Source: Candidatus Hydrogenedentota bacterium (GTDB lineage: Bacteria; Hydrogenedentota; Hydrogenedentia; Hydrogenedentales; JAGMZX01). From it: a DNA stretch of 53,005 nt. A program made the position numbers and the translations under genes. The notes below the pieces were generated by a model that did not search any database, had not been told where the DNA came from, and saw only the letters and a list, made by a program, of their open reading frames with translations. The stretch spans positions 1 to 53,005 of the forward strand of contig JAKQEQ010000112.1 of the NCBI GenBank assembly GCA_029556545.1. The letters run 5' to 3'. This document shows, piece after piece, positions 23,707 through 41,401 of the stretch (position 1 is its first letter; every line of letters begins with the position of its first letter).

Positions 23707-23735
23707 TTGCTTTTCCCGCCCCCGGCGTTCATAAT
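23707..23735 (+). promoter_or_regulatory. Promoter of the hydrogenase-like sensor kinase gene
   Basis: TTGCTT (23707-23712), 17 bp, CATAAT (23730-23735). Transcription would start about 70 nt before the start codon at 23813. It diverges from the operon promoter at 23468-23496, with about 210 bp between the two. Confidence 0.5.
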
Positions 23736-23812
23736 TGGCACATAAAGTCCGTCCGGTTGCGCCGGGGGCGGCCCGCGCCAATCGCCGGACCGTCAGGAAA
23801 TTCGAGGATTCG

Positions 23813-25870
23813 ATGCGCGAATCGGCCAAAATACCGCTGGTCACGACGATTAGGGAACGGTGCCGGACCTGCTACACCTGCGTCCGCGAGTGCCCCGCCA
23901 AAGCTATTCGGATTGTGGACGGACAGGCGGACGTCATTAGTCAGCGGTGCATCGGTTGCGGGAATTGCGTGCAGGTCTGCGGCCAGCACGCAAAGCGGGT
24001 GTATGACTCGACGGAGGCGGTCAAGCAGCTCTTGGCCGGCGACGGGCGCGTAGCGGCCATTATCGCGCCGAGTTTCCCGGGGGAGTTCGTGGACTGGAAT
24101 TTTCGGCTGCTGGCGGGGGTACTGCGGCGTATGGGGTTCCGGTACGTTGTCGAGGTGGCAGCTGGCGCGGACCTCGTGGCGGACCGCTACCGCCGTCTGA
24201 TGGAGCGCAACGACGGCAAGTCCTACATCGCCACCACGTGTCCCGCGATCGTCGCGTATGTCGAACGCTACTTCCCCAAGCTTGTGGATTCGCTGGCGCC
24301 TATTGTGTCGCCAATGGTGGCTACGTCGCGCGCGGTGCGACGCATGTACGGCGATGAAGTAAAGATCGTGTTTATAGGCCCGTGCATCGCGAAGAAGGGC
24401 GAGGCGGTGAGCGGCAGTGTAGACCACGACGTTGACGCGGTGCTGACTTTTGTCGAACTACGCCAGATGGCCTGGGAACTGGACCTGTCGCGTCACACGG
24501 TTACGGAAAGCGAGTTTGACCCGCCGTTGGCCGGGCCCGGCGCCCTTTTCCCGTTGCACCGGGGGATGCTCCAGGCGGCGGACCTTCCCGAGGACCTTGT
24601 CAGCGGAGACGTCGTAACCGCCGGTGGGCGGGCGGGTTTCGTCGAGGCGATCAAGGAGTTCTATCTGGGCCATTGCAGCCCGCGCCTGCTCGAGGTGCTG
24701 GCCTGCGAAGGATGCATCATGGGGCCCGGCATGAGCAACAAAGACCCCTTGTTCCGCCGGCGGCGCCGCGTCAGCACCTACGTGCGCGCCCGCCTCGAGC
24801 AATTGGACCACGACGCGTGGCGGCGTCAAATGGACGGCTTTGCCGATCTCGATCTCTCGCGATCGTTTGAGCCGGACGACCAGCGTATTCCCGATCCCAC
24901 GGATGAGGAAATCAAATACATTCTGCATCGCATGGGCAAGCACTCGGTCGAGGACGAACTCAACTGCGGGGCATGCGGCTATGAGACCTGCCGTGAGCAC
25001 GCGACCGCCATCCAAAAGGGCTTGGCGGAGAGCGAGATGTGCCTGCCCTACACGATCGATAAGCTGCGCCAAGCCGTGAGCAGTCTCGCCGTGTCGAACG
25101 AGAAGTTGGCGCGCGCGCGGGAAACGCTGGTCCAGGCGGAGAAGCTGGCCACTATGGGCCAATTGGCGGCGGGTATCGCGCACGAATTGAACAATCCGCT
25201 GGGCGTCGTGCTGATGTACGCGCATATGCTCCTCGAGGACTGCCAGGAGGATCAGCAGATGCGCGAGGACCTCGGAATGCTGGCCACCCAGGCGGACCGC
25301 TGCAAGAAGATCGTGGCGGGGCTGCTGCATTTCGCTCGGCAGAACAAGGTAGCTCTGGAGCCCACGGACATGCGGGCGCTTGTCGAGGGATGCTTGAGAC
25401 TGGTTACGCTTCCGCCGCACGTGACTTCCCAAGTGCGACACGAAGGCGATAACCCGTGGGCCGAGGTCGATCGCGACCAGGTGACGCAGGTATTGACCAA
25501 CCTGATCAACAACGCCTGCCACGCCATGCCCGACGGCGGCGTACTCACGGTCAGCACGCGCAGTGAGGCCGAGGAAATCCATCTGATAGTCGAGGACACG
25601 GGCGCGGGCATTCCGGAGGAGAACCTTAGCAAGATTTTCGATCCGTTTTTCACTACGAAACCCATTGGCGAGGGCACCGGCATGGGCCTTGCCGTGAGTT
25701 ACGGCATCGTGAAGATGCATCGAGGCAACATCCGGGTCGAGTCGAACGCGGCGCCCGAGCAAGGCCCCACGGGGACGAAATTCACGGTCTCTCTGCCACG
25801 GCGGGGCCACGTGGGCGCGCCGGGCGCGACCGCGGAGGTCGTCGAGGAACAGATTGGCGCGCCGGCCTGA
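23813..25870 (+). CDS. [FeFe]-hydrogenase-like sensor histidine kinase
   Basis: 685 aa from the ATG at 23813 (GAGG 5-8 nt upstream). Two 4Fe-4S motifs come first: C17, C20, C23, C27 and C46, C49, C52, C56. An [FeFe]-hydrogenase large-subunit domain follows (about 75-320) with all four expected H-cluster ligands: C143 in TTCPAIV, C191 in [10 protein letters not shown]298 and C301 in [11 protein letters not shown]. In catalytic enzymes the first motif is TSCCP; here the proton-relay Cys is replaced by Thr. Next is a PF04060-type Fe-S motif (C385, C388, C393, C410), then a coiled linker and a histidine kinase: H457 in [12 protein letters not shown] box [16 protein letters not shown] and GTGMGLAV. 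Likely a cytoplasmic H2 or redox sensor. Its partner is probably the next gene. Confidence 0.92.
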
Positions 25871-37563: not shown

Positions 37564-37666
37564 TGCCGCGCTCATCCCCTGCCCCAACGCAAGGCTTGCC
37601 TTGGCGGCGATCCGTTCCGACGTGACGGCTTACACGTCGTTCTCGCTTTGCTTGATCCCGCTCGAA

Positions 37667-38005
37667 TCAGGGACAGTCCTTCATTTCGATTCGAGCGTCA
37701 ACACGACGGTTCTGCCGTCGGTACATTTCTTCAGGACGGTCGTTCAGCGGCCGCGATTCTCCCATGCTTTCCACCCCGAGTTGCGCATCAGGTATTCCAA
37801 GTTCGCGCAGATAGGCCCTCACTGCCTCTGTGCGCCGCAGCCCCAAGCGCAAGTTGTAATCAGCGGAGCCCACGGCGCACGTATGCCCAACACAGATTAG
37901 CGTGTCGCACGGGAACTGCTTGTGATACCCGGCCCACCGCCTCAGTTCCGACCTGGCGTCCTCCGAGAGCTCGGCACCCCGGTTGCGGCCTGCCGCCGCC
38001 GCACG
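37667..38005 (-). pseudogene. OmpA/Pal C-terminal domain remnant without a start codon
   Basis: The minus-strand frame reads, from about 38005, AELSEDARSELRRWAGYHKQ, then DTLICVGHTCAVGSADYNLR, LGLRRTEAVRAYLRELGI and NRRVDARIEMKDCP. This is the OmpA-like peptidoglycan-binding domain, with the YNLRLGLRR and NRRVDARI signatures. An in-frame TAG lies just upstream (38006-38008) and there is no ATG; only a GTG at 37873 would start it, in mid-domain. The N-terminal beta-barrel or lipoprotein anchor is missing. It is best read as a decayed gene. The tRNA-His promoter overlaps its 5' edge on the opposite strand. A short expressed fragment is less likely. Confidence 0.65.
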
Positions 38006-38053: not shown

Positions 38054-38130
38054 GCCGGGGTAGCTCAGTTGGTTAGAGCACTGGATTGTGGATCCAGGGG
38101 TCCAGGGTTCAAGTCCCTGCCCCGGTACCA
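38054..38130 (+). tRNA. tRNA-His (anticodon GTG)
   Basis: A 77-nt cloverleaf can be drawn, with genomic CCA at the 3' end. Acceptor GCCGGGG pairs with CCCCGGT (G1 opposite U72), the D arm starts GCTCAG, the anticodon stem is CTGGA/TCCAG with loop TTGTGGA, and the T loop is GTTCAAG. Anticodon GTG reads histidine codons. A G is present at -1, but the discriminator is A instead of the usual C73 opposite G-1. Confidence 0.95.
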
Positions 38131-38393
38131 TTCCTTTTTCGCCTCAGAATCTCCGGAAACACGCACTTTCCCCCGCAATTGCCCCGCTCTCTGGCCGTAG
38201 GTATGTAGACAGCCGCTATCTTGTGCTCCTGATACGGTTTCGCCAGGCCGCACCACGTGCAATCCTTAAGGAAGGCCTCCGCGTCCTCCTTCGATGCACA
38301 AGCGCGAAGAACGTCGAGGCACTCCCTTATTTTCTGTTCGTCAGTAATCGATCCGGACCCGGACGGTCCAGCCTGTAGGTGTAGTCGGGCCAT
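38109..38393 (-). CDS. Doubtful small cysteine-rich ORF
   Basis: 94 aa if it starts at the ATG at 38393, inside the 3' end of the dihaem protein gene. It has no ribosome-binding site. The middle looks protein-like (KIRECLDVLRACASKEDAEA, FLKDCTWCGLAKPYQEHKI, then a C-x3-C-type tail), with amphipathic helices and six cysteines. It ends within the 3' half of tRNA-His on the other strand, which is unusual and suggests a lost natural stop. It could be a real small gene, a remnant, or chance. I do not recognise a family. Confidence 0.35.
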   Translation of the reverse strand: MARLHLQAGPSGSGSITDEQKIRECLDVLRACASKEDAEAFLKDCTWCGLAKPYQEHKIAAVYIPTARERGNCGGKCVFPEILRRKRNGTGAGT

Positions 38394-41300
38394 AAGGGGC
38401 AATTCAGGTCGACCCAGGCCTTCACCGCGCGCATCTCATCCCGGCTCAGGACAACTTCCTTGTGGTCCTGGTCATCGAGGACTTTCCACAGACGGCTCTG
38501 GAGCGTCCCGAACGAGAGCGGTTCGGCCTTGAATGGACGCATGCCGTACGTGTAATCGAAGAAGTGAACCCATCCGCCCGCGATGAGGGATCGATAGGAA
38601 GCCGGGATACGGTGTCTGTCGAGTTTTCCGCGCAAATCGGGGCGCGCCCCGAGCCATCCGCCGTCGTGACAGCGGACGCAATTGCGGTCCCATACCGGTT
38701 GAACGACCTTTTCATAGGAAAAGGGCACGGCGCCCCAAGGCGGCGGATCGAGGTGGGCGGCCGGCTGCCGCATGGCCTGCCGCAGGCCCATGGCGGGCGA
38801 GGTGGTCTGGCGGTCTTCGTGGCAGCCGATGCAACTGCGCGTTTCCCCGGGCTGCAATTGAATAACACTCCGCATCCGCTGGAGCTCATTGAAATCCGCG
38901 TCAAGCAACTGAAAATAGAGCTGCCTGCCCGCGGGCGCCAGGAAATTGGCGGAACCATCCTCCGCGACGGGCGCGACGCCGTAGGATCGCTTTGCCTCGT
39001 ACGCCGGCCAACTCGCATCCTCGGTCACGCGGTAGAGACCGTCTCCCACGGCTTCAATCTTCTTGGACCAGTCGTGGTTCGTCCTTACAGGCCCCACCGA
39101 TGCATTGGCCGTGCGCGTAAGGTAACTGTTCACATGGCCTTGCACCAGATGGATCGGCGAAGCGTAGAAATCCTGGAAGGGCGGATGGTCTTTTCGGCAT
39201 TCGCCATTGGCGAGCAATTCCAGTTCGGCGGGCACTTCCTCGGCAACACGGACGTACCTGACACGGCCGCGCCCGACTTCCGCCCCCAGACCGATGTAGA
39301 CGTCCTGAATGGTAAAACGCCCCAGTTGCTCTTTGGCAAGAGGCTCGTCGAATCCGCTTGTCAACACCGGCGGGCGCGGCCGCGGCCGCAACAGCGTCGG
39401 CCCGGTGCTGCTGATTTCGGGGTCGATATACAGCAATTCACGGTTGCCGTACCGGTCGATGACGTACAGGCCCCAGTTATGGTGATTATCCGGGTTGTGA
39501 GTGACCAGGAAATGGTCGCTCGAGATGGGATACGGGTCCCGGAACGTGTCGAAGTAGCTGCGGTCCATCTGGTAGCACGGACGCGTATCCGGCGTAATGT
39601 TGGTAATGGCGTTCGTGTCGAAAGGCCCTTTGCCCCGGTCGATCAAGGCGATGGGGCCTTCGTGCGCGCCATGAGACATCAACGTGCAGACAATCTCGTT
39701 GGTTCCCGGCGCCTCGTGCGCCTGGCTGTAGCAATTGGGCGTGTTGTTGCCGAATAGCAGCGCGGGATGCGTTCCGTCGGGGCGGATGGTCCATAGCGTG
39801 TGGCTGAAGTCCGCGCCTTTGTCGATGTACTCCGACCGCGTCCAGAGAATCAGCCCGTCGCTCATAACGGATGGCTTCCACTCGCTCAGATTGGCGTAGG
39901 AAAGCCGCCGCGGACTCGTGCCGTCCCGCTCCATGCGGTAGAGCACATACGCCTGTGGCCGCCAGCAGAGAAAACGCAGCGCGCACCGGGTCGAGATGAA
40001 CGCCACGCCCCCGTCGGGCAGCACGACGGGGTCGAAATCATGAAACGGGCCGTCGGTGAGTTGCAGCACTTCGCCGCTCTTCAAGGACAGCGCATACATG
40101 TGCCAGTACGAGTCCCATCCGTCAACCTGTGGAACCTCCGGCCGATAAGCGAAGTAGACGGTCTGCGCCTCATAATCGAGCACCGGCTCGCGGACGATGC
40201 CCGCGCTGCCGTCGAACAGTTGTTCGACCTCGGCCGCGTCCGGAAGCAGGCCGCCCTGCGCGTCGCGGGCGACGTGGAGCACAAAGACGCCGCCGCCGGG
40301 TTCAAGACAACCGTCCAAGTGCTCGCTGTAGTTGTGCGATTCCAAAAAAGGATGCCGCTTGGCGAACAGCACGCGCTCCAGCGGCGCCAGCGAAGGGTCG
40401 CGGAAGAACAGACGCCGCTTGGCCCAGCGGGCCGCGAGGTAGAGGTCGTCGCCGGCGGCCGCGCCGGAGTCCGCCGCCGCGCGGAACTGGGCCAACTGCC
40501 GCCGTTCCGCGTCAACGTCCAGCCCCTGCCCTTCGAGCCGGTCAATCATGCCCGCGTACAGCGCCACGACCCGGTCCAACGGCGACAAACGCGCAAGCCG
40601 TCCCCAGTACGGGGCGCCGCCCGGATAAGCCGGGCGGTCCGTCAGTAGCGGCGACAGGTAATCGTCGTCGGGAATCCGGCTCCACGTGTCGCGCTCGCGC
40701 AGAAAAGCGTATTGCAGCACGCCGCGCCAGTTCTTTTCTGACAGCCGGTCAACCCGCAAGCAGGGCATCAGGTCAAACTGGCTCAACGGGTTTCGCCGGC
40801 GCGGCAACAGCGACGTGGAGTCTAACGTGCCCACCGGCCGCCAGTCCGTTCCGTCCACAGACACCAACAGTTGCGCCCTGGTGGCGATGCGGTCCTGAAA
40901 CTCGCCCATCCGATCCCGCGAAACCACCACCCGCGCCACCTCCGCCGCTTCCGGCAATTCGATTTGCGCCCACCCTTCTCCGGGCGTGGCGGCGATCCAG
41001 CTACGGGAGTTGCCATATTGGCCATCGTTCAAGTGAGCCACCGCGTGGATCGCGTACCCGGGTAGCAGCGACGACGCGCTTGCCACGGACCCGCGGGATG
41101 CAAGGGCCAGATTCTCCGTGGCGTTGGGAGCATAGACCTCCAATTCGTCCAGACACGGTTCCGCGTTTCCACTGGTCTCCTGGATTATCAGCCGCACAAA
41201 ACGGACCTTTTGGGCGGGAAACTGTATCGCCGCCGTACGCTGTGGCGCGCCGCCGGTCGAAACGCGCGCCACTTTTTCCGCAAACTCCTCCGCCACGGGA

Positions 41301-41401
41301 CGGCGCGCGGCTTCCCTCGCCCCCTCTGGCAAAGCCTCCTGTCCGGGCGCAGCCATCAGCACGGCGCCATACAACGCAAGAAAGACGGATACAGCAACCA
41401 T
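38327..41401 (-). CDS. HZS-alpha-like (hydrazine synthase alpha family) secreted dihaem protein with discoidin domain
   Basis: 1024 aa from the ATG at 41401 (GAGG 8 nt upstream). Signal peptide: MVAVSVFLALYGAVLMAA. Residues of about 45-210 look like an F5/8-type C (discoidin) domain (VRFVRLIIQETSGNAEPCLD, SWIAATPGEGWAQIELPEAA). The middle has beta-propeller-like blades (LTDGPFHDFDPVVLPDGGVA, FISTRCALRFLCWRPQAY, RMERDGTSPRRLSYANLSEW). Near the C-terminus are two c-type haem motifs, CIGCH at about 857 and CVRCH at about 908, plus the family segments PGETRSCIGCHEDRQTT and HDGGWLGARPDLRGK. This matches the HZS_alpha family, named after the anammox hydrazine synthase subunit but widespread in bacteria that do not make hydrazine. 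Function unknown; a periplasmic redox or glycan role is inferred. Confidence 0.88.
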   Translation of the reverse strand: MVAVSVFLALYGAVLMAAPGQEALPEGAREAARRPVAEEFAEKVARVSTGGAPQRTAAIQFPAQKVRFVRLIIQETSGNAEPCLDELEVYAPNATENLALASRGSVASASSLLPGYAIHAVAHLNDGQYGNSRSWIAATPGEGWAQIELPEAAEVARVVVSRDRMGEFQDRIATRAQLLVSVDGTDWRPVGTLDSTSLLPRRRNPLSQFDLMPCLRVDRLSEKNWRGVLQYAFLRERDTWSRIPDDDYLSPLLTDRPAYPGGAPYWGRLARLSPLDRVVALYAGMIDRLEGQGLDVDAERRQLAQFRAAADSGAAAGDDLYLAARWAKRRLFFRDPSLAPLERVLFAKRHPFLESHNYSEHLDGCLEPGGGVFVLHVARDAQGGLLPDAAEVEQLFDGSAGIVREPVLDYEAQTVYFAYRPEVPQVDGWDSYWHMYALSLKSGEVLQLTDGPFHDFDPVVLPDGGVAFISTRCALRFLCWRPQAYVLYRMERDGTSPRRLSYANLSEWKPSVMSDGLILWTRSEYIDKGADFSHTLWTIRPDGTHPALLFGNNTPNCYSQAHEAPGTNEIVCTLMSHGAHEGPIALIDRGKGPFDTNAITNITPDTRPCYQMDRSYFDTFRDPYPISSDHFLVTHNPDNHHNWGLYVIDRYGNRELLYIDPEISSTGPTLLRPRPRPPVLTSGFDEPLAKEQLGRFTIQDVYIGLGAEVGRGRVRYVRVAEEVPAELELLANGECRKDHPPFQDFYASPIHLVQGHVNSYLTRTANASVGPVRTNHDWSKKIEAVGDGLYRVTEDASWPAYEAKRSYGVAPVAEDGSANFLAPAGRQLYFQLLDADFNELQRMRSVIQLQPGETRSCIGCHEDRQTTSPAMGLRQAMRQPAAHLDPPPWGAVPFSYEKVVQPVWDRNCVRCHDGGWLGARPDLRGKLDRHRIPASYRSLIAGGWVHFFDYTYGMRPFKAEPLSFGTLQSRLWKVLDDQDHKEVVLSRDEMRAVKAWVDLNCPLWPDYTYRLDRPGPDRLLTNRK

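Follow-up and report, generated by a model that had tools for sequence, protein, structure and literature searches.

A dihaem protein resembling the hydrazine synthase alpha subunit in a Candidatus Hydrogenedentota bacterium without a recognisable hydrazine pathway

The gene and its protein

The stretch of DNA considered here, called the window throughout, comprises 53,005 nucleotides of contig JAKQEQ010000112.1 from a Candidatus Hydrogenedentota metagenome-assembled genome (MAG; GCA_029556545.1). On its reverse strand, positions 38327-41401 form an open reading frame (ORF) for a 1024-residue dihaem protein that resembles HzsA, the alpha subunit of hydrazine synthase (HZS). To our knowledge, hydrazine synthase was long believed to be without relatives. 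In the protein described here, this architecture seems to be used for a different redox chemistry.

The start codon is an ATG at 41401, with a GAGG 7 nt upstream, and the residues are numbered from this ATG. The protein consists of a hydrophobic N-terminus, a discoidin-like domain (residues 108-192), a helical linker, a TolB-like propeller (residues ~343-670), a PF18582 domain and a class-I cytochrome c, in that order (Table 1). The ORF, the C-terminal module with two CxxCH motifs and the central propeller had all been proposed in a first-pass annotation made from the sequence alone, and all are borne out: the PF18582 domain scores 74.9 bits against a gathering score of 26.6 and is closed by a CxxCH motif (C857IGCH861), and the structural model matches HZS alpha and TolB. 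A chance ORF is ruled out by an orthologue from the same genus that is 89% identical, with a dN/dS of 0.13 that indicates purifying selection, and by relatives at 47-81% identity in several phyla. Named relatives at 75-80% identity agree with placing the host in Candidatus Hydrogenedentota.

The N-terminal segment is likewise hydrophobic in 63 of 72 relatives, and the protein is probably secreted, judging from its signal-like start. Proteins for c-haem assembly are present in the genome. Conservation at a level of at least 97% is found at 101 of the 328 propeller positions, many of them His, Asp, Arg or Tyr, and at 31 of 75 positions in the haem alpha-I domain.

A discoidin-like domain, called a discoidin domain in the first-pass annotation, is a feature of the clade as a whole, although the PF00754 score in the window protein itself, 26.5 bits, falls just below the Pfam cut-off of 28.2. 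In a profile comparison it matches the Sm-hPAF structure weakly (E 0.0023), and a paralogue scores 50 bits. It is present in 37/37 window-type sequences of the tree described below, in none of the six HzsA sequences and in none of the five clade-I-like ones. The planctomycete-specific cytochromes (PSCyt1-3) are another expanded group of cytochrome c domain proteins in PVC bacteria, and carbohydrate-binding or F5/8 modules occur in some of them (PMC5615132); unlike these, the window protein has no PSCyt or PSD domain at E values up to 1.

Table 1. Features of the dihaem gene and its product, with positions in the window
Feature	Position	Strand	Basis
Dihaem HZS-alpha-like gene, 1024 residues	38327..41401	-	ATG and GAGG, PF18582 match, dN/dS 0.13
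Hydrophobic Sec-type signal-like segment, residues ~1-20	41342..41401	-	Hydropathy maximum 2.35
Discoidin-like (F5/8 type C) domain, residues 108-192	40826..41080	-	PF00754, 26.5 bits
TolB/HzsA-like beta-propeller, residues ~343-670	39392..40375	-	Model, PDB match, conservation
PF18582 (HZS_alpha) middle domain, residues 790-862	38816..39034	-	74.9 bits
Haem alpha-I motif C857-I-G-C-H861, then E-D-R-Q	38819..38833	-	Alignment; no Tyr591/Ser590 equivalent
Haem alpha-II motif C908-V-R-C-H912	38666..38680	-	Sequence, alignment
Asn553, aligned with zinc ligand Cys303 of HzsA	39743..39745	-	Alignment column and profile alignments
His980, candidate distal ligand of haem alpha-II (HzsA His772)	38462..38464	-	Aligned to 5c2v chain position 745

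Relationship to HzsA

An AlphaFold model of the window protein, built on 72 sequences (pLDDT 86.9, pTM 0.85), has as its top PDB match the HZS alpha subunit of Kuenenia (5c2v_A, E 2.8e-26). Second comes TolB, which shares the propeller fold but lacks haem and a cytochrome domain. A PDB search with the single sequence returned TolB only, and 5c2v was retrieved with the family profile. A profile-profile alignment against 12 true HzsA sequences gave a probability of 99.1% and an E value of 1.5e-18 over 448 columns. The homology to HzsA is firm in view of this comparison and the model match, but it is distant, since the window protein reaches 25.6 bits with the curated HzsA model (NF052339), whose cut-off is 800, and so falls outside HzsA proper. 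True HzsA is found in 27 of 392 Planctomycetota genomes, at 1065-1642 bits and always above the cut-off, and no other genome of this set passes E 1e-25 with the model. The highest weak match, among ten named genomes, reaches 92 bits; such matches alone were not counted as evidence since they occur in Caulobacter too.

The window protein shares with HzsA (PDB 5C2V) the order of propeller, PF18582 haem alpha-I domain and class-I cytochrome c, as well as both CxxCH motifs and the His772-type distal ligand of haem alpha-II. It differs in having an extra discoidin-like domain and alpha-helical linker ahead of the propeller, in lacking Tyr591, Ser590 and Cys303, and in lying outside any hzsBCA operon. 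In HzsA, a zinc is described as bound by Cys303 and by His587 of the haem alpha-I motif, with Tyr591 as the proximal haem ligand (PMC12607021, PMC12758564). All 37 window-type sequences keep the CxxCH histidine of haem alpha-I; none has a Tyr at position 591, where Q, R, H, S and M are the commonest residues, and position 590 is R in every one, with loss of Ser590. The Cys303 column holds N in 29 and D in 8 of them, and Glu in half of the anammox sequences. Since the CxxCH histidine is kept and the Tyr591 equivalent is lost, haem alpha-I should be an ordinary His-ligated c-haem.

At haem alpha-II, the distal position is occupied by His (H980) in all 70 relatives with letters there, and a hidden Markov model alignment places H980 on His772 of 5c2v. 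These two alignments were used because an indel displaces the position of H772 in the large alignment, where 13 of 37 sequences show H. Haem alpha-II is thus predicted to retain bis-His ligation through its CxxCH motif and the His772 equivalent. The first-pass annotation had singled out loss of the distal haem and zinc ligands, relative to Kuenenia HzsA, as evidence that would speak against it; the zinc ligand Cys303 has indeed gone, along with Tyr591, but the distal histidine has stayed.

A family tree, also proposed in that annotation, has three separate clades: HzsA (100% support), clade-I-like sequences (97%) and a large dihaem family (100%). Window-type sequences form a clade (98%) in two parts. 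One part (99%) contains the window protein, with members from Hydrogenedentota, Pirellulaceae and Verrucomicrobiales and one from Solibacter; the other contains the members found near beta-gamma genes. The order at the root is not secure because long branches meet at the base. One candidate alpha sequence (L106, 11169-15041) was rejected as a discoidin-repeat protein that is probably no alpha.

Homologues of HZS alpha outside anammox bacteria, some with fused beta-gamma and lacking key residues, were described by Hagglund et al. 2025 (PMC12758564), and none of them has a confirmed function. Clade I of that study, represented here by the clade-I-like loci L174-L178, resembles the window protein in having PF18582, in the loss of Tyr591 and Ser590 and in the presence of fused beta-gamma homologues. 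The window protein does not belong to it, however: the clades are separate in the tree (97-100% support), the residues and partners differ, and the clade-I-like sequences are without the discoidin domain. Clade I homologues are described as lacking the His772 equivalent (PMC12758564), and the tails of the clade-I-like sequences have no evident His at the His772 motif.

The HAO/HDH family (PF13447) has no member in the window genome, which is 96% complete, or in a congener; two anammox genomes, searched as positive controls, gave 14 and 8 matches. No hydrazine-type gene is found beside the dihaem gene in the window. The annotation's picture of a dihaem protein of the HZS-alpha type in a bacterium that has no recognisable hydrazine pathway is thereby upheld, and the adjacent hydrazine genes that would have contradicted it are absent. 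To judge from its sequence, the window protein is not a hydrazine synthase and would make no hydrazine, since it scores 25.6 against 800 bits, the equivalents of Tyr591, Ser590 and Cys303 are gone, and the HAO/HDH family was not found.

A fused beta-gamma homologue and many alpha paralogues

The window protein is one of eight HZS-alpha-like proteins in its genome, which has a single beta-gamma-like partner gene. This gene lies on another contig (C132, 116855-118690), where it follows a tandem pair of alpha-like genes, each with a fused FGE-sulfatase domain. Its product, of 612 residues, combines a YVTN propeller with two CxxCH motifs and is 27% identical to concatenated HzsB and HzsC over 698 columns (2.5e-59). 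Among the NCBIfam models, the hydrazine beta-gamma fusion matches this product best, at 173 bits for a cut-off of 1250; genuine HzsB and HzsC, run as controls, clear their own cut-offs. The beta-gamma protein of a relative was modelled, and its propeller best matches 5c2v_B (TM 0.87 by target length); the propeller part alone was used, as the model is poor in the di-haem part (pLDDT <50 over 439-514). We infer that beta-gamma consists of a 7-bladed YVTN propeller and a di-haem MauG/peroxidase-like domain.

The statement in the first-pass annotation that no beta or gamma subunit, hydrazine dehydrogenase or other anammox gene is present is correct for the window and, as regards HAO/HDH, for the genome, but it fails for the genome as regards the fused beta-gamma-like gene. 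A view of the family as detached from beta and gamma would also be incomplete, since the same genome and most relatives have one fused beta-gamma next to other paralogues of alpha.

In 60 genomes of the Hydrogenedentota order, 35 have both alpha-like and beta-gamma genes, 4 alpha only, 2 beta-gamma only and 19 neither (Fisher p 7.5e-10, ignoring the relatedness of the genomes). Where both occur, the median number of alpha-like genes is 9 (range 1-21) and beta-gamma is nearly always present once; in 15 of the 22 genomes checked, it lies no more than 2.2 kb from an alpha-type match. All 12 genomes of the order with a window-type orthologue have one beta-gamma. In a set of 80 loci from several phyla, beta-gamma is found near the window-type gene in seven, in Verrucomicrobiota, Kiritimatiellota and Armatimonadota, and directly downstream in five. 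Another alpha lies within two genes in 17 of 78 loci, and the commonest neighbour other than alpha is of the Gfo/Idh/MocA type, inconsistently placed in 16 loci. A family-wide "stand-alone, no partner" assignment derived from neighbour clustering was dropped when comparison with HzsB and HzsC revealed the beta-gamma genes in 7/80 loci.

The beta-gamma partners also set the family apart from clade I. The clade-I-like partner is a 10-haem protein, with eight further haem motifs and Cys165 present, whereas that of the window family has two haems and no Cys165. Clade IV is described as having alpha and beta-gamma together, in variable gene order and without FG-GAP or ABC genes (PMC12758564). This published description fits the clusters seen here, and clade IV may be the same family as the window type.

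Several loci are worth recording in their own right. FGE-sulfatase domains are fused at the C-terminus of HZS-alpha-like dihaem proteins in L161 (7213-13859) and L162 (6773-10813). A window-type gene is present in a cultured relative, Aquisphaera insulae JC669 (L118). The second alpha genes of L085, L090, L094 and L132 belong to a distinct alpha-like clade, are encoded after beta-gamma and have a third CxxCH. Two contigs of one MAG (L067 and L068) carry near-identical window-type and alpha-like genes, the alpha-like pair having a branch length of 0 in the tree, through an assembly artefact or a duplication of recent date. Window-type and alpha-like genes also occur on L110, a contig titled Candidatus Nealsonbacteria that is perhaps misbinned.

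Possible roles of the protein

The explanation that we consider best, at about even confidence, is that the window protein is an interchangeable alpha-type subunit of a periplasmic redox system with the HZS fold, and that it does not make hydrazine. It would be one of several alpha paralogues that work with the single fused beta-gamma in the periplasm. The bis-His haem alpha-II would act as electron carrier, and the His-ligated haem alpha-I, beneath the strongly conserved propeller, would be the reaction site. The discoidin-like domain may anchor the protein to a glycan or surface.

Several observations weigh against this explanation. The window gene is solitary, and its neighbours are not kept even between members of the genus, so that its partnership with beta-gamma is deduced from co-occurrence and from relatives. 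Six of the 60 genomes are discordant, and the co-occurrence statistic ignores shared ancestry. The haem-free model resembles HZS alpha to a moderate degree (TM 0.47 by query and 0.62 by target length). The beta-gamma of the window group lacks equivalents of HzsC Cys165 and His144, so that the gamma-type chemistry must differ too.

A wider generalisation, which we regard as rather doubtful, is that the system is modular: one beta-gamma hub per genome would serve many swappable dihaem alphas, with accessory domains such as discoidin and FGE-sulfatase setting the target, and hydrazine synthase would be one specialised branch.

Somewhat plausible, though short of even confidence, is a periplasmic or surface redox protein that works alone, outside any HZS-like complex, with the discoidin-like domain docking on polysaccharide and the haems oxidising sugar or passing on electrons. 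The position of the window gene outside any conserved cluster and the fixation of the discoidin-like domain in its clade are consistent with this, as are the exopolysaccharide and glycoside-hydrolase genes in the window, an unspecific neighbourhood, and the link of planctomycete-specific cytochromes with carbohydrate-binding modules to carbohydrate use (PMC5615132). Action on carbohydrates, as the first-pass annotation had suggested, is possible. However, relatives from the same clade are encoded near beta-gamma, and each genome of the order with an orthologue has one beta-gamma. The Gfo/Idh/MocA-type neighbours are too inconsistently placed to help, and a carbohydrate-oxidising signature was not found.

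It is improbable that the protein is a non-catalytic redox sensor, structural protein or haem store multiplied in PVC-type bacteria, as the many paralogues with varied accessory domains (FGE-sulfatase fusions, discoidin) and the lack of any homologue of confirmed function (PMC12758564) might suggest. Conservation is centred on the propeller and the haem alpha-I domain, beyond what a passive scaffold would need, which makes chemistry the likelier role. An unrecognised hydrazine synthase that forms N-N bonds is barely conceivable in spite of the HZS-alpha fold, the two haems and the beta-gamma homologue in the genome, given the missing Tyr591, Ser590 and Cys303 equivalents, the absence of an HAO/HDH-family protein from the genome, a beta-gamma without Cys165 and His144, and scores far under the curated cut-offs.

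The main text of PMC12758564 mentions neither Hydrogenedentota nor discoidin domains, an organisation with one beta-gamma and many alphas was not found described there, and no functional study was found in the literature on HZS homologues in Hydrogenedentes or Verrucomicrobia. The discoidin-bearing clade with its bis-His haem and the one-beta-gamma, many-alpha organisation appear to be additions to published knowledge. With one beta-gamma partner per genome, as demonstrated for the Hydrogenedentota order, and with its retained bis-His haem, this multi-copy family, widespread in Hydrogenedentota, Planctomycetota, Verrucomicrobiota, Kiritimatiellota and Armatimonadota, offers a testable route to the ancestral chemistry. 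In practical terms, an "HZS_alpha" annotation outside anammox bacteria is no evidence of hydrazine metabolism.

Elsewhere in the window, a tRNA-His (GTG) gene lies at 38054-38130 on the forward strand, just downstream of the dihaem gene. What appears, by eye, to be the C-terminal part of an OmpA-type domain is found on the reverse strand at ~37660-38000, where no intact ORF is listed. On the forward strand, the gene at 23735-25870 encodes a fusion of an [FeFe]-hydrogenase large-subunit domain with Fe-S domains and a histidine kinase, a putative sensor of the hydrogenase type, and is followed by a response-regulator/kinase gene.

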